The translations under genes and the position numbers were made by a program. This document shows, one piece after another, positions 717 through 26,329 of a stretch of DNA of 64,000 bases. How positions within the stretch are numbered: position 1 is the first letter of the stretch; each line of letters starts with the position of its first letter. Below the pieces are notes generated by a model. That model was not told the origin of the DNA, ran no database searches, and saw nothing but the letters and a program-made list of their open reading frames with translations. Location of the stretch: NCBI RefSeq assembly GCF_007004725.1, contig NZ_ML660168.1, positions 124,001 through 188,000 on the forward strand. The letters run 5' to 3'. Source of the DNA: Aliikangiella coralliicola (lineage in GTDB: Bacteria; Pseudomonadota; Gammaproteobacteria; Enterobacterales; Kangiellaceae).

Positions 717-1511
717 CTATTTGTCAGAAGAATAGTGGACCAGTTCTATCTTTTTTAAGTCTTCGACAAATCCTAGAGACTTAATTTCCCGCAAACATTT
801 TTTATAGAGAGACTTAGGTGTGGCTTTCAAGTGAGAGAGTGCAGCATCCGTTGGAATATCTTTCAATAAGGTGAAAATCGCTAAAGAATAGGCATATTCA
901 GTATCACTCAAATATCCACTCCGTTGCGATCGCCAACCTTGAGAACTCGCACCACTATACTGATGGAACGTGAATGCTGTGTTAGCCATAAAAATGCCGA
1001 ACCCAAGAAATATTGCCGCAATATCTGTCGCAAACTCCCAATTATCAAATCCTCCAGGTGGTGCTTCTTTGGTAGTTGCCGTTAAATAGTGAGCGAGCTC
1101 ATGAGCAAACGTAGCCACCAATTGTTGCGGATTATTAACCAGTTGGGGATTGTAAGTAATAACAACTTTTTGCTCACTATCAACAGAGAATGTGCCATGG
1201 GGTGAACTCGGCACATTTTGCAATGCAACGGTTTCGGCGACTCGCGGGTCAATATCTTTTTCTTGCTTTTCTAATTCACAATGCCAGTTTTGCATGTTAG
1301 CCAATGCTTTCACAGTCATAAAAGTCGCTTCAGCAACCTCATCTGCAGTGGAGACCGAGAGTGGAAAAAACTCTGAGGTAGGTAAAACTAATTGCGTGTG
1401 CTGATAAAAATCCTCTCCGCCAAAATTGCGTAACAACCAGCGGTAGGTTTCAATTTGAAAATCTCTATCAGTTTCAGATAAAAGCGGCTTACGCCTCAAA
1501 AAACCAAACAT
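717..1511 (-). CDS. HExxH metallopeptidase-like protein of unknown substrate
   Basis: 264 residues from the ATG at 1511 (a TTG one codon upstream is less likely). Residues 137-141 are HELAH, a zincin HExxH motif, followed about 20 residues later by NWEFATD (E159, D163), either of which could be the third metal ligand. There is a hydrophobic segment around 163-180 (IAAIFLGFGIFMAN) but no convincing signal peptide, so a cytosolic or peripheral protein with a buried hydrophobic helix is likely. I do not recognise a named family. The gene starts only 6 bases past the stop of the large methyltransferase-aminotransferase gene upstream, so the two are almost certainly co-transcribed. A protease role is inferred from the motif only. 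Confidence 0.8.
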   Translation of the reverse strand: MFGFLRRKPLLSETDRDFQIETYRWLLRNFGGEDFYQHTQLVLPTSEFFPLSVSTADEVAEATFMTVKALANMQNWHCELEKQEKDIDPRVAETVALQNVPSSPHGTFSVDSEQKVVITYNPQLVNNPQQLVATFAHELAHYLTATTKEAPPGGFDNWEFATDIAAIFLGFGIFMANTAFTFHQYSGASSQGWRSQRSGYLSDTEYAYSLAIFTLLKDIPTDAALSHLKATPKSLYKKCLREIKSLGFVEDLKKIELVHYSSDK

Positions 1512-1517
1512 CAATAC

Positions 1518-4500
1518 TCAGCCTAAAAAATCAAATTCGCTAAGCCGCTTTACCGCCTCTTCAAAGTCACCATCGGAACAAGATAATACAAACCGACAAT
1601 ATCCAGGTAACCCAGTCCAGGTTGAATTATTAATCACCAAATTTTTTAGTTTAAATAACTGACTTGTTACTTGATCAGCAGCATCAATCGGCGGAATTTC
1701 ATATTTATCAATGAATGCTTGAGGCTTAGCAACTAAAAATAAGCCACCACTTGGTTGAATGACTTTCCAGCCTTTTTGAGTTAACAGTTGCGACAACCGG
1801 TGGGCACGGCTTTCGAGTTCTTTCCTTTGTCGTAACAAATGATCTTGTAGCGAGCTTTCGCCACTTAATTGCGCTTCAATTATTTTTCTCACAGTATAGC
1901 CGAGGGTAAAGTGTGGACTATGAGGCAACAGGCTTTTTAAATCAGCAATTAACGGTTTACTCGTCGACCAACAATAGCCAAATCTTAAACCGCCTGCAGC
2001 ATACTCTTTAGATATCCCACCGATAAATACAAGTTTTGCTCTTTTGCTATTGACGAATTGGTAAATACAATCGGACAAGTTCCAGTTTGAATTTTCATTA
2101 AATTCCAGTCCGCTAAAGACACTATCTAGAATCACGGTGACATCGTATTTTAACGCGATAGAAAGTAGATCATTCAATTCCGCCTGAGAATAGACAGCAC
2201 CCACGGGGTTGACCACTGGTGCATTTAAAAATAACCAGCAGCCAACTCTTGTAGAAAGATACTCATCGAGCGATTCGGCGTTAATCTTAAACTGGTTCTC
2301 TTCTCCAGTATGTAAACAACCGATATCAACATCTTTATATTGCGCTGCAGCCATAAAATAACCATAACTACCGCTTGGAATAACGAGCGACTTTTTTTCT
2401 TGAGTACACAAGTTTAGCAACGAGGAGAAAATAGGCGCAACGCCATTTCCGAACAGCATTTCAGAATAGAATGTTAGTGGAATACCAAACCGGAACTCCA
2501 TTAACTCACGTAATGGCTCTTCTGGATTAGACTCCTCAACTGAACATCTCCTCACCAGGTAACTCTCAAATAACTTCTCTTTTAAAATCGTCGGAGCTGG
2601 TAATTCATTCTCCCCATAATCGAGACGGATTGTTCGGTGATCAAATGCCAGATGATTACCTTGAATGGCAGGGTGATTAAAAGCGTTCTGTGCAGGCAGG
2701 CACAAAGGAATTGATAACCTGGTATTTGATTCTGAAACGAAAGCAGCCTCTTGCTTTGAGGTAGAGCGTGTCCGCTGAAAATATAATAGTTCCTCAAGCA
2801 AGTGCGCATAATAGAGTTGTTTTAGAATGGGGGTTCGACTGTAGGTTAATTCAGCCGCATCAACCACATCTTTCACTAACTGCTGATTACTCGTTAATGT
2901 AATATTGAGAGAATAATTTTTATAAACTCGATTATTAATTAGCGCCGCCATAATAATTAAATTACTGGGCAAAGGGTGTTCAGACAAATACCGGTAAACC
3001 CCGTTGATTTGAGGCTGACTACTCAGATCAATATTGTTGGTTAAATCAACCAATAAAAAGACATTATTTTGCTGCGCACATTCGATTAACTGCCTCACCA
3101 GCTGGCTCGATTGTACTTCATGTACATCCAACTGAGTGATTATCAATTGAGGCTTAAGCTTATCAACCAATTCAATGAGGAATTCTACTTTTGACGGCGC
3201 CTCAATTATTTGCGTCGATTGCTCGTCAAATCCTTTTTCAATTAGATGGATAAGTTCTCTGGCCACCAAAGTCAGTTTAGGCCGGTAATTTGTTAACAGA
3301 CTGGTGATGAGTTCGCTACGCCCCGGCGTTATCACTAATTGTTGCTCAGTAACATTGACCTTCAAGTAGTAGCAGAAATATTCTGCAAGTTGCTGGCGGA
3401 AGTAGTTTAATCCAGCTGTATCGCCATAGGGGAAATGTTGGGTTCGTTGTAAATGTCGCGCAAGAAAAGCGAGAAACGAATAACGTTCTTCCGCATCATC
3501 AAAATTTTCATAGGTTAAGTCAATCGCACTACGCAACGCTTTTCCACCAACGAGGTCAACAGATTCAAAAATAGATTTAACCTGATCTGGAAATAGCATT
3601 TCTGCTTCATAGACATCAACAGAATGGTAAATTTTTCCGCCTGCTCGCGCGTATTCCAGCGCGGTTCTTGCGTCAATTGTCATATCTGAGTTCGGTGACA
3701 TATAAAATTCAAACCGATGGCCAGTGCTTTTTTCAATATCGACCAACATGTCAATTTCGGTATCCGCAGCCTGTTCTACCTGGGTCTGCCAAACTCGCCT
3801 GACTTTGAAACCTCTTCGTCGCATCAGACGTTCTAATACAGCCCTTCCCGGACGCCCTCCTAAGTTGAGTATTAGTTTTCCAGTCGATCTCAATAATGGA
3901 ATTGACTGCTCCACGGCACTGGCAATTAAACCTAGCCCAAACTGATCTTCAATAAATCCCTGCTTTGCAAAATAGTTGCTGAGAGAATAGAGATAATCGT
4001 CACTCGCCGTTTCTGCAATCAGATCTTCCATCACTTCAGGCTCAGGGTTTAGCACTTGGGGAATACACCCAATAATCCGATCAATTTCAAGTCGGGAGTC
4101 TTCAAAAGGATGAGTCTTTGACTGGTTAAAATAGCTGAATAAGTTAGACTCGAAAAAATAAACGCAGTCCAGTAGTGACTTTCCATTAGCCAATATTTTC
4201 AATGTTTGATCGTCGTCATTAAACGCATTCAGGAACAGGTTTAATTTAGCGCAAACGATGGCTTTGGGGTTGATATCCAATCCTGTAATATTTTGTGGTG
4301 AATAGCGCAATGCCAACGCAATTGTAATCCAGCCAATTCCACAGCCTAACTCAACCACATTTCGCTCTTGATATTCGTTAGCTGGATAACGGATCAAACC
4401 TTCGTAAAAGGTAAAAGACCATGCTTCAGGTAAAAAGGTGCTAGGGAACTGCAATAACTTAAGGCTGACGGTCTCGTCGCTTTGATCGAGAATGTTTTGT

Positions 4501-4694
4501 CTAATAAATTGAAAATGACAATCTGCTGGTGGGGCCGAGTCATAAAACTGGTAAAGCTGTTTAAAGAAAAGATAGGCTTCTAGCCGAGTCTCCTTGCTTT
4601 CGAGTTGACTGAGTAAAGTTTTGAATGCCTCGTAAGCATGGTTGCTAGATTGCTGGCACTGCTTGACGAAACCGGTCACCTTTTCATTGGTCAT
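1518..4694 (-). CDS. mmt: Plant-type methionine S-methyltransferase (SAM methyltransferase fused to PLP aminotransferase-like domain)
   Basis: 1058 residues. The N-terminal third is a class I SAM methyltransferase: motif I VELGCGIGW (114-122), GLDINPKA (138-145), and GCIPQVLNPEP (209-219) in the place of the usual NPPY loop. The C-terminal half is a fold-type I PLP aminotransferase-like domain with NAPVVNPVGAVY, an ILDSVFSG strand, the ISKEYAAGGLRFGY segment with candidate Schiff-base lysine K896, and a terminal WTGLPGYCRF with the carboxylate-binding arginine. This order, the length (plant enzymes are close to 1,090 residues) and segments such as AWSFTFYEGL, DQFGLGLI and TWTGLPGYCRF match what I know of plant methionine S-methyltransferase, which makes S-methylmethionine from methionine and SAM. 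The short bacterial enzyme MmtN lacks the second half. Function is inferred from homology. It heads a two-gene operon with the HExxH protein; no SAM riboswitch is visible upstream. Confidence 0.82.
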   Translation of the reverse strand: MTNEKVTGFVKQCQQSSNHAYEAFKTLLSQLESKETRLEAYLFFKQLYQFYDSAPPADCHFQFIRQNILDQSDETVSLKLLQFPSTFLPEAWSFTFYEGLIRYPANEYQERNVVELGCGIGWITIALALRYSPQNITGLDINPKAIVCAKLNLFLNAFNDDDQTLKILANGKSLLDCVYFFESNLFSYFNQSKTHPFEDSRLEIDRIIGCIPQVLNPEPEVMEDLIAETASDDYLYSLSNYFAKQGFIEDQFGLGLIASAVEQSIPLLRSTGKLILNLGGRPGRAVLERLMRRRGFKVRRVWQTQVEQAADTEIDMLVDIEKSTGHRFEFYMSPNSDMTIDARTALEYARAGGKIYHSVDVYEAEMLFPDQVKSIFESVDLVGGKALRSAIDLTYENFDDAEERYSFLAFLARHLQRTQHFPYGDTAGLNYFRQQLAEYFCYYLKVNVTEQQLVITPGRSELITSLLTNYRPKLTLVARELIHLIEKGFDEQSTQIIEAPSKVEFLIELVDKLKPQLIITQLDVHEVQSSQLVRQLIECAQQNNVFLLVDLTNNIDLSSQPQINGVYRYLSEHPLPSNLIIMAALINNRVYKNYSLNITLTSNQQLVKDVVDAAELTYSRTPILKQLYYAHLLEELLYFQRTRSTSKQEAAFVSESNTRLSIPLCLPAQNAFNHPAIQGNHLAFDHRTIRLDYGENELPAPTILKEKLFESYLVRRCSVEESNPEEPLRELMEFRFGIPLTFYSEMLFGNGVAPIFSSLLNLCTQEKKSLVIPSGSYGYFMAAAQYKDVDIGCLHTGEENQFKINAESLDEYLSTRVGCWLFLNAPVVNPVGAVYSQAELNDLLSIALKYDVTVILDSVFSGLEFNENSNWNLSDCIYQFVNSKRAKLVFIGGISKEYAAGGLRFGYCWSTSKPLIADLKSLLPHSPHFTLGYTVRKIIEAQLSGESSLQDHLLRQRKELESRAHRLSQLLTQKGWKVIQPSGGLFLVAKPQAFIDKYEIPPIDAADQVTSQLFKLKNLVINNSTWTGLPGYCRFVLSCSDGDFEEAVKRLSEFDFLG

Positions 4695-4977: not shown

Positions 4978-6708
4978 ATGAAAATGACAACAAAAACCCT
5001 GCTCGCCATTTCTTTATTTTCGATTACCTTTTTATCACAGGTTAAAGCCATGGATCGCATTACAGGAAAAAATTTCGCCACGCGCTCAGAAGTCATCGCT
5101 AAAAACGGAATGGTGGCAACCAGTCAGCCACTGGCAACCCAGATAGGTCTGGATATTCTCAAAAAAGGCGGAAGTGCGGTTGATGCAGCAATTGCGGCCA
5201 ATGCAGCGCTAGGCTTAATGGAACCGACCGGAAATGGTATCGGAGGCGATCTCTTTGCTATTGTCTGGGACAACAAATCAAAAAAACTCTACGGATTAAA
5301 TGCCAGCGGCCGTTCGCCCAAAGGACTCTCTTTCAAGCAGCTACAAACCAAACTGAAAGCGCTCAATCGAGACACTATTCCTCCTTATGGCATGTTGCCC
5401 ATTTCAGTGCCTGGTACCGTCGACGGCTGGTTTGAGCTACATGACAAATTCGGTAAGCTGTCAATGCAAGACAATCTAAAACCCGCCATAGACTATGCTA
5501 ACGACGGATTTCCGGTTAGTGAGTTGATTGCCTATTATTGGGATCGGAGCGTTCCTCGACTCTCTCCACAACCCGGTAGTTTTAAGTCAACCTTTACCAT
5601 TAATGGAAAAGCACCGAAAAAAGGAGAGATTTTTACCAACCCTGAACTGGCCGACACACTGACGAAGATCGGAGCGCAGGGAAGAGATGTATTTTACAAA
5701 GGTTCAATAGCCAAAAAAATTGATCGGTTTATGAAAGACAACGGCGGCTATTTAAGATATCGAGATTTTAGTGAGCACACCTCGACCTGGGTTGAGCCAC
5801 TTTCGGTGAACTACCGTGGTTATGAGGTGTTTGAATTACCGCCCAATGGCCAAGGGATCGCCGCGTTACAAATGCTCAACATGCTAGAGCAATTTGACCT
5901 TAAGGGCATGGGCTTTTTAAGTGATGAAACCTTGCACACAATGGTCGAGGCCAAAAAGCTGGTCTTTGAAGACAGAGCCAAGTTCTATGCTGATATGGAT
6001 TTTAACAAAATCCCGCTTAAAGGGTTACTCTCCAAAAAATACGCTAAAGAACGCGCTAAGCTTATCAATAAAAATGCAACGAACAGAGTGGATAGCGGTA
6101 ATCCTGCACTTTATCAGGGCGACACTATTTACCTCGCGACAGCCGATAAAGACGGCAATATGGTCTCTCTGATCCAGAGCAACTATCGCGGCATGGGGTC
6201 CGGCGTCACGGTTCCAGGGCTAGGGTTTATTTTTCAAGATCGAGGCGAACTTTTCTCTATGGACAAATCACACGCCAATGTTTACGCCCCGGGTAAAAGA
6301 CCTTTTCACACTATTATCCCGGCTTTTGTGATGAAAGACGGTCAGCCGTTTATGAGCTTTGGACTAATGGGCGGCGCAATGCAACCACAAGGGCACGTAC
6401 AGATAATTACCAACCTTATCGATTTTGGTATGAATCTTCAGGAAGCTGGCGATGCAACTCGCTGGCAACATTTCGGTTCGACAGAACCAACCCAACAAAA
6501 TACCACTTATCTAAAAGATGGCGGCACCTTAGCAATTGAATCTGATATCAGTTATCAGACCATTCAGAAGCTATTAGCCCGCGGTCATAAAATACGCTAT
6601 GACAGAGGGGGTTATGGGGGATACCAGGCCATTATGTATGACGCCAAAAATAAAGTTTACTACGGTGCTTCGGAGTCTCGTAAAGACGGTCAAGCGGCAG
6701 GCTATTAG
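4978..6708 (+). CDS. ggt: Gamma-glutamyltranspeptidase, periplasmic
   Basis: 576 residues with an N-terminal signal peptide (hydrophobic core 6-20, cleavage likely after KA at 23-24) and an AGGGAA ribosome site before the ATG. The proenzyme is expected to cut itself before the nucleophile threonine T383 (QGDTIYLA), separating large and small subunits. GNGIGGDLF near residue 88 and the MGGAMQPQGHVQ segment near 463 are family hallmarks. The enzyme hydrolyses or transfers gamma-glutamyl groups, chiefly of glutathione, in the periplasm. It stands alone, divergent from the methionine methyltransferase gene with 283 bases between, so shared sulfur-metabolism regulation is possible but not shown. 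Confidence 0.93.
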   Translation: MKMTTKTLLAISLFSITFLSQVKAMDRITGKNFATRSEVIAKNGMVATSQPLATQIGLDILKKGGSAVDAAIAANAALGLMEPTGNGIGGDLFAIVWDNKSKKLYGLNASGRSPKGLSFKQLQTKLKALNRDTIPPYGMLPISVPGTVDGWFELHDKFGKLSMQDNLKPAIDYANDGFPVSELIAYYWDRSVPRLSPQPGSFKSTFTINGKAPKKGEIFTNPELADTLTKIGAQGRDVFYKGSIAKKIDRFMKDNGGYLRYRDFSEHTSTWVEPLSVNYRGYEVFELPPNGQGIAALQMLNMLEQFDLKGMGFLSDETLHTMVEAKKLVFEDRAKFYADMDFNKIPLKGLLSKKYAKERAKLINKNATNRVDSGNPALYQGDTIYLATADKDGNMVSLIQSNYRGMGSGVTVPGLGFIFQDRGELFSMDKSHANVYAPGKRPFHTIIPAFVMKDGQPFMSFGLMGGAMQPQGHVQIITNLIDFGMNLQEAGDATRWQHFGSTEPTQQNTTYLKDGGTLAIESDISYQTIQKLLARGHKIRYDRGGYGGYQAIMYDAKNKVYYGASESRKDGQAAGY

Positions 6709-25091: not shown

Positions 25092-25117
25092 TTTAACCAA
25101 GTAACTTGCGCAGACAA

Positions 25118-26329
25118 ATGGACAACGTAATCAATTACACTATGCAGTCAACGCTGTTTTCCCATCACAATGTGCCATTAGATTTGCTCGCAAAACGAGC
25201 ATATAATTTTCGATGGGCGGAAGTTGATGCGGGAATAATACCTTTAACAGCCGCAGACCCTGACTTTCAAGTTGCGCTCGAAGTTCGAAATGCAATTGCA
25301 TCATATGCGATGGATGGTGTTCTGTCCTACGGCCCTCACGGCGGTTTAAGTCAATTCAAACACGCATTAGCTAACGTGTTATCGGAACGAAAGTCATACG
25401 ATATTTCGTGCAACAACCTGTTACCAGTCGATAGTGCGGCCAGCGCAATGTACTCCGTTGCCCGTACTTTTTTATCGGCCGGAGATGAGGCTATTATTTT
25501 TGATCCGGTCGATTTTTTATTTGAAAAATCAGTGACCAGTGCAGGAGCCAAAGTAATCCGCTGCCCTTTCGATAAAAGTTCGGGTCGATTTATGCTGGAG
25601 TTACTACCCAAATTAATCAGTCGCAAAACAAAAATGATCGGCGTTTGTAATCCACACAATCCGCTTGGAAAATTGCTAAGTCCACAAGAAATAGAAGACA
25701 TTGCCCGTTTTGCCAATGAACACCAGCTATGGATTATGAATGACGAAGTTTGGTCCGATATTATCTATCCAGAAAATCAGTTTTTCAGCTTTCACCATTT
25801 AGCATCTAACTTGCGTCAGAAAGTTGTCACAGTTTACGGCTTTTCAAAGAACTTTGGATTAGCAGGATTAAGAATCGGTGCGATTATCGCGCCTGATGAC
25901 AATATTTATCAGCGAATCGTTAACACTTCAAACGTGCTGACAACTGCCGGCGGAGCGTCGGTATTATCCCAAATAGCGGCGATTACCGCACTCACTCAAT
26001 GTTGGTATTGGGTGGATGAGTTTATCAAGCATCTAACAGAAATGCGTGACTATGCAGTAACACGTCTAAACAATATGCCTGGAATTCAGTGTGAGAAGCC
26101 CCAGGCAACCTATTTACTATTTCCAAATATTGAAGCGACAGGATTCACCGCTGAGGATTTTTCAGCGAAGCTTCTCAACGAGAAAGTTGCGGTGGTACCC
26201 GGCACCAAACGTTTTTTCGGCCCTGGAGCAAAAGGTCATATCAGAATTAGCTTCGCAACAAGCAAAGAAATACTTAGCGAAGGACTAAATCGAATTGAAA
26301 GAGCAGTCAGTAAGGAAAAGGAGAATTAA
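25118..26329 (+). CDS. PLP-dependent aminotransferase class I/II (MalY/PatB-like or biosynthetic)
   Basis: 403 residues from the ATG at 25118 (a further in-frame ATG is at 25142). Fold-type I enzyme: IPLTAADPDF near 40, LSYGPHGGLSQFKHAL near 72, NPHNPLGKLLSP near 180, NDEVWSD near 207 and the Schiff-base lysine K244 in GFSKNFGLAGLRIG. The ADPDF variant of the substrate-loop motif (ADMDF in the C-S lyases MalY and PatB) leaves open whether it transaminates or cleaves C-S bonds. Its TAA stop overlaps the ATG of the next gene. Confidence 0.88.
   Translation: MDNVINYTMQSTLFSHHNVPLDLLAKRAYNFRWAEVDAGIIPLTAADPDFQVALEVRNAIASYAMDGVLSYGPHGGLSQFKHALANVLSERKSYDISCNNLLPVDSAASAMYSVARTFLSAGDEAIIFDPVDFLFEKSVTSAGAKVIRCPFDKSSGRFMLELLPKLISRKTKMIGVCNPHNPLGKLLSPQEIEDIARFANEHQLWIMNDEVWSDIIYPENQFFSFHHLASNLRQKVVTVYGFSKNFGLAGLRIGAIIAPDDNIYQRIVNTSNVLTTAGGASVLSQIAAITALTQCWYWVDEFIKHLTEMRDYAVTRLNNMPGIQCEKPQATYLLFPNIEATGFTAEDFSAKLLNEKVAVVPGTKRFFGPGAKGHIRISFATSKEILSEGLNRIERAVSKEKEN

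Follow-up and report, generated by a model that had tools for sequence, protein, structure and literature searches.

What use does a marine gammaproteobacterium have for a methionine S-methyltransferase (MMT) of the plant type, and above all for the C-terminal half of this enzyme, to which the literature passages on plant MMT assign no role? The question is raised by a gene at positions 1518..4694, minus strand, of a 64,000-nucleotide stretch of Aliikangiella coralliicola DNA (the window; NZ_ML660168.1, positions 124,001 to 188,000 of GCF_007004725.1, our C9:124001-188000 in a source genome of 7,044,713 bases on 22 contigs). The encoded protein of 1058 residues very likely belongs to the known Group III of MMTs, and on balance we lean towards a joint explanation in three steps, in which methionine is converted into S-methylmethionine (SMM) and pyridoxal 5'-phosphate (PLP) chemistry follows on what would be SMM or a close relative. 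In the first step, the methyltransferase domain would make SMM from methionine. In the second, the C-terminal domain, to judge by its fold and its residues, would hold PLP on K896, would be competent and would most likely act as an aminotransferase on what the methyltransferase makes or on a near relative of that compound, giving either 4-dimethylsulfonio-2-oxobutyrate from SMM, which would be an intermediate of the type found in dimethylsulfoniopropionate (DMSP) pathways, or the keto acid of methionine. In the third, a lysine-less middle domain would take the part that the other subunit plays in an ordinary aminotransferase dimer; by lending Tyr423 to the site of K896, it would let a single chain form one active site.

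The minus-strand frame runs from 4694 to 1518 and encodes 1058 residues from its ATG with 0 internal stops; the plus-strand reading of 1518..4694 has many stops. The sequence 5' of the ATG is AAAAGGACC. Whole-length homologues at 50–65% identity occur in other genomes, which places the protein far beyond chance, and the chain described in the first-pass annotation is real: VELGCGIGW (residues 114-122), GCIPQVLNPEP (209-219), K896 and R1034 were all located in the translated frame. A Pfam scan finds the methyltransferase fold MTS at 109-159 (E 5.6e-7) and Aminotran_1_2 at 730-1051 (E 2.4e-31), and the protein thus has the long chain (about 115 kDa) and C-terminal aminotransferase domain that mark Group III. 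Residues 1-366 (3597..4694, minus strand) form the S-adenosylmethionine (SAM) methyltransferase domain by Pfam, alignment and profile, with GCGIG at 117-121, D140, C210 and N216. In a profile search of the PDB with the first 647 residues, the first match is MmtN of Roseovarius indicus (7vvv, E 9.9e-9, over 194-353); GCGIG, the GxGxG motif that goes with an MmtN-homologous N-terminal domain in Group III, is invariant among 8 aligned proteins, and C210 is the counterpart of the SAM-contacting Cys121 of MmtN. Domain order and the profile match to 7vvv support well the label of a full-length plant-like MMT that the first-pass annotation had given. The novelty that it had implied for such an enzyme in bacteria is lost, since some Deltaproteobacteria and Oligoflexia had already been reported by Peng 2022 (PMC9135737) to possess a plant-like MMT with the same two domains ("Group III"), of a function that is hard to predict. 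According to the same work, most SAM- and methionine-binding residues of MmtN are conserved in MMT (PMC9135737).

The second step rests on residues 661-1058 (1521..2714, minus strand), which Pfam and structure searches identify as a complete fold-type I PLP (aminotransferase) domain. By alignment, the residues expected of such a domain are all found: a lysine at the Schiff-base position (K896, 2007..2009), the PLP aspartate (D857), the phosphate arginine (R904) and the substrate carboxylate arginine (R1034, 1593..1595, within WTGLPGYCRF). What is absent is the tyrosine at the position of Tyr225 of aspartate aminotransferase, where F860 (2115..2117) stands instead. K896, D857, F860, R904 and R1034 are each kept in 11/11 genomes with an MMT (nine whole proteins and two pieces, the basis of all residue counts over 11 genomes given here), and N829 is kept in the 10/10 MMTs that can be read there, being masked in one. 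The suggestion that the PLP domain might be active, made from the window alone, is therefore strengthened by the invariance of its lysine, aspartate and both arginines and qualified by the Phe that takes the place of the usual Tyr at 860. These counts bear on a different reading, in which SMM is made by the methyltransferase and the two PLP-fold parts have only a structural or regulatory role, for instance in sensing Met or SMM, as is conceivable for plants. An Asn at the lysine position of the middle copy in all 11 MMTs and the unusual F860 would fit it, as would the Leu that takes the place of K896 in a provisional Arabidopsis MMT1 sequence, by which the domain could persist without its lysine; K896, D857, R904 and R1034, however, are identical in 11/11 genomes at identities to the window protein down to about 50%, an invariance that one would not expect if the active site were idle, and we regard this reading as rather unlikely.

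Because F860 replaces the usual tyrosine, the chemistry may not be plain transamination, and the domain could instead carry out another reaction of sulfonium amino acids: decarboxylation to DMSP-amine, or a gamma-elimination or cyclisation in the manner of ACC synthase, with dimethyl sulfide leaving. The change from Tyr to Phe in 11/11 MMTs, the presence of ACC synthase among the sequence matches (7dlw, E 1.7e-9), GntC as best NCBIfam match and the textbook chemistry by which the leaving group of SMM is of the same kind as that of SAM all speak for it. On the other hand, the chain misses the cut-offs of all 25 NCBIfam models listed, and misses them by far (87.7 against 415 bits for GntC), and plain aminotransferases are the top matches in the structure search; we consider this alternative chemistry improbable, and aminotransfer remains our preferred second step.

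The third step concerns residues 367-660 (2715..3596, minus strand), which we model not as a linker but as a second, degenerate fold-type I PLP fold, consisting of the large domain and lacking the small one, on the strength of an AlphaFold2 (AF2) model of that part together with structure searches and alignment; the truncated large domain itself spans about residues 400-645 in the model. D550 (3045-3047), Asn587 (2934-2936) and Asn588 are present in 11/11 MMTs, and an ungapped reading of LIIMAALIN against LVFIGGISK puts Asn587 at the lysine position. Y423 (3426-3428) is found in 10/10 MMTs that cover it and belongs to a segment that is matched by hhalign with the aminotransferase YxxxxGxxxL motif; in aspartate aminotransferase the tyrosine of this motif is Tyr70, which is donated to the other subunit. 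In the C-terminal domain, the corresponding positions 717 and 718 are variable, with Tyr in 1/11. With Y423 in one copy and the lysine site in the other, the middle and C-terminal copies appear to have each retained one half of the active site of a dimer, and from this complementary pattern we infer a one-chain aminotransferase pseudo-dimer that would possess one active site. As a weak hint on contact between Tyr423 and K896, 9 of the 50 structure matches listed begin at model residues 418-425. In the open-licence literature we found no published description of a third, degenerate PLP fold in MMT or of the complementary-residue pattern.

A wider proposal may be built on this, which we hold to be doubtful: MMT would be a self-contained two-step enzyme and a pseudo-dimer, the bacterial form would keep an ancestral activity on sulfonium amino acids, and land plants would have inherited the chain and lost the lysine. 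If true, bacterial MMT would be the missing SMM transaminase of DMSP synthesis, and the C-terminal half of the plant protein would be explained. A provisional sequence of Arabidopsis MMT1 aligns end to end with the window protein, the three parts being 47, 30 and 27% identical in turn. In this provisional sequence K896 is replaced by Leu, R904 by Lys and both N829 and N824 by Ser, D857, F860 and R1034 being kept; it also has a Lys at the position of Asn587 together with the Leu at that of the C-terminal lysine, a seeming swap that is odd. Should the sequence be correct, the C-terminal lysine disappeared in plants and was retained in bacteria, which we offer as a lead; among the papers listed in literature searches, none could be identified as discussing that residue in plant MMT. 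MMT is called ubiquitous in plants (PMC11464771).

In plants MMT serves an SMM cycle (PMC9135737), and the same could be imagined here, with MMT making SMM and a stand-alone homocysteine S-methyltransferase returning it to methionine. The source genome has one match to PF02574, the homocysteine S-methyltransferase family, and this match sits in a frame of 1230 residues, by its size probably MetH, not in a stand-alone enzyme. Among the 8 family genomes with MMT, a short, separate and weaker-scoring PF02574 frame (317 residues) exists in G002 only, and G010 has two partial matches, apparently from a single split gene, one of them in a frame that a contig end truncates. The source genome gives no support to a plant-style SMM cycle, and we judge such a cycle very improbable as the role of the enzyme.

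How widely is the chain distributed? Eight of 40 genomes of the Kangiellaceae, the gammaproteobacterial family of the source, carry MMT: whole in G000 (the window's own), G001, G002, G004, G012 and G013, as two pieces on two contigs in G006, and cut by a contig end in G010. Within the genus the count is 5/7. The two remaining genomes, G003 (98% complete) and G005 (92% complete), give no full-length match, which suggests loss or patchy inheritance. A sample of 345 genomes across the order yields six matches, five within the family including the window's own and a sixth, G1092, in another family, where MMT is found in 1/3 genomes; MMT is also present in two metagenome-assembled genomes (MAGs). 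A scan of named genomes returned four full-length homologues (L009 to L012, 62–65% identity) and two, L013 and L014, whose match is confined to the aminotransferase part. In a tree of the nine whole proteins, restricted to those found in this analysis and thus free of plant or Oligoflexia sequences, G013 groups with G1092 and the remaining seven group together, with the branching among these seven resolved in part. Broader samples were almost empty. A profile of the methyltransferase and middle parts matched only the window's own genome among 398 Pseudomonadota (best three candidates per genome), and none of 297 genomes from the phylum of L014, a Desulfobacula MAG, in a set that holds no positive control; a whole-length profile run on 369 Gammaproteobacteria (best two candidates per genome) gave a full-length match only in the window's genome, the other matches listed being aminotransferase parts. 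Such samples do miss members, as the later find of G1092 in the order sample shows. Searches for MMT in plasmids and in viral contigs gave none, and phages gave 18 records, none at 80% query coverage, the 5 matches listed being to the aminotransferase part. The genome samples include no Bdellovibrionota or Oligoflexia.

The surroundings of the gene were then compared between loci. The divergent neighbour at 4978..6708 (plus strand), from its sequence presumably a gamma-glutamyltranspeptidase-like gene, adjoins MMT in 4/5 same-genus genomes; we treat it as a neighbour and not as an established component of the system. What we take to be an acyltransferase-like gene lies on the other side in 5/5 same-genus genomes, with one gene in between in the window and in L010 (Aliikangiella marina). 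In the window, the strand of MMT also carries a 265-residue frame (717-1514, minus strand) that begins 3 bp beyond the MMT stop. It contains AHELAHY, a stretch of the HExxH type, and gives a weak match of SprT-like type (E 0.0022, under the cut-off); the other loci listed do not have it next to MMT, and as an operon partner of MMT in general it was rejected. At L012:5069-5829, the ATG of a carbon-nitrogen hydrolase gene overlaps the TAA of MMT, and its best NCBIfam match is the amidohydrolase PRK10438 (159.9 bits, cut-off 249), which we take to be the model for YafV, one of the omega-amidases that work with glutamine transaminases; a link of MMT to a glutamine transaminase is possible at this locus. 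A gene that appears from its sequence to encode a flavin amine oxidase adjoins MMT on the opposite strand at L009:11585-13153 (minus strand); plant DMSP synthesis includes an amine oxidase step. Just upstream of MMT in G012, on the same strand, are what appear to be proB- and proA-like genes (L078, 7663-13353, minus strand); proline is an osmolyte, like DMSP. Apart from the flavin amine oxidase-like gene of L009, inspection by eye of the frames around MMT in the loci of 10 genomes, with no family search and confined to linked genes, showed no evident DMSP-synthesis gene. The cupin DMSP lyase family PF16867 passes its cut-off in 0/14 genomes; partial matches below cut-off occur in 4/14, the best of the 14 being that of the source genome (24.7 bits, cut-off 27), and also in 2/14 control genomes. 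Another PLP aminotransferase-family gene lies distant from MMT at 25106-26329 (plus strand; Aminotran_1_2, E 2.2e-52, at C9:149235-150296). The 64-kb window holds no RNA family at gathering scores and no tRNA.

Several of these results, and some published ones, weigh against the three-step explanation. At the position of F860, Tyr is found in 58, His in 2 and Trp in 1 of 61 other aminotransferase-family proteins, a set that consists of matches to the whole-length profile or to PF00155 and is not random. The confidence of the AF2 model (predicted local distance difference test, pLDDT) is below 50 at 212-254, 862-865 and 896-902, among others, that is, the model is poorly ordered at the active sites. 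Of the methionine contacts in MmtN, Glu127 is N216 here (Asn in 9/9), Arg132 is V221 (Val in 7/9, Ala in 2/9) and Glu250 falls in a gap and has no counterpart; the methionine site thus differs from that of MmtN, and the assignment of methionine as substrate therefore leans on membership of Group III and not on MmtN's site. At the level of sequence the middle domain finds little support: hhalign gives 29%, and 0.3% against the protein's own C-terminal domain, and a PDB profile search ranks EvgA (E 0.057) ahead of the first aminotransferase (E 0.39). The coupling of amidase and MMT occurs in L012 only. In Burkholderia, the transaminase proposed for a sulfonium pathway, BurD, is described as dispensable, loss of burD having only lowered the amount of product. 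Finally, one of four tested Group III strains made DMSP and the other three made none, with no linked pathway genes (PMC9135737). Conversion of methionine into SMM followed by PLP chemistry is nevertheless the explanation to which we lean. Bacterial MMT could then supply the transaminase step for DMSP synthesis, and a family of marine gammaproteobacteria joins the likely makers of SMM. A bacterial MMT that has the lysine, aspartate and arginines of a PLP enzyme is also a protein in which the role of the C-terminal half can be assayed.

Four known systems may be set beside the window protein. With the Group I enzyme MmtN (7vvv) it shares a homologous methyltransferase domain (E 9.9e-9) and the same predicted reaction, but MmtN is one domain of 305 residues with Glu127 and Arg132 in its methionine site, whereas the window protein has 1058 residues in three parts, with N216 and V221 at these positions, and does not have the single domain of about 305 residues by which Group I is recognised. 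Fold-type I aminotransferases (PF00155; e.g. 8wou, 6f77) have the fold of the C-terminal domain and its K896, D857, N829, R904 and R1034; the window protein departs from them in the Phe at the Tyr225 position, in having no conserved Tyr70-type residue within the same domain, and in the fusion of that domain to a lysine-less partner fold. For the second half of the proposed route, PMC5557254 lists an SMM transaminase-decarboxylase for higher plants. BurD is a published precedent for a partner enzyme, and precedent for a fused one is given by the bifunctional DsyGD (PMC11306096), in which a methyltransferase is joined with another enzyme of a sulfonium pathway; the substrate of that methyltransferase, however, is methylthiohydroxybutyrate and the fused partner is a decarboxylase, so the analogy is one of design only. 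The closest relatives are the Group III MMTs, in which a SAM methyltransferase is likewise followed by an aminotransferase-type C-terminal part within one long chain, and the window gene, in the neighbourhood inspected by eye, shows, like the published bacterial ones (PMC9135737), no evident link to DMSP, nonribosomal peptide synthetase or methionine-cycle genes. The word Kangiellaceae is absent from that paper, and the published enzymes are dual-domain; the window protein is gammaproteobacterial, is modelled as three parts and has an intact PLP-site lysine, aspartate and arginine. The plant domain, by the provisional sequence, would be without the lysine. Beyond the published headline, we add a gammaproteobacterial family as host, the modelled three-part chain, the complementary-residue pattern and F860.
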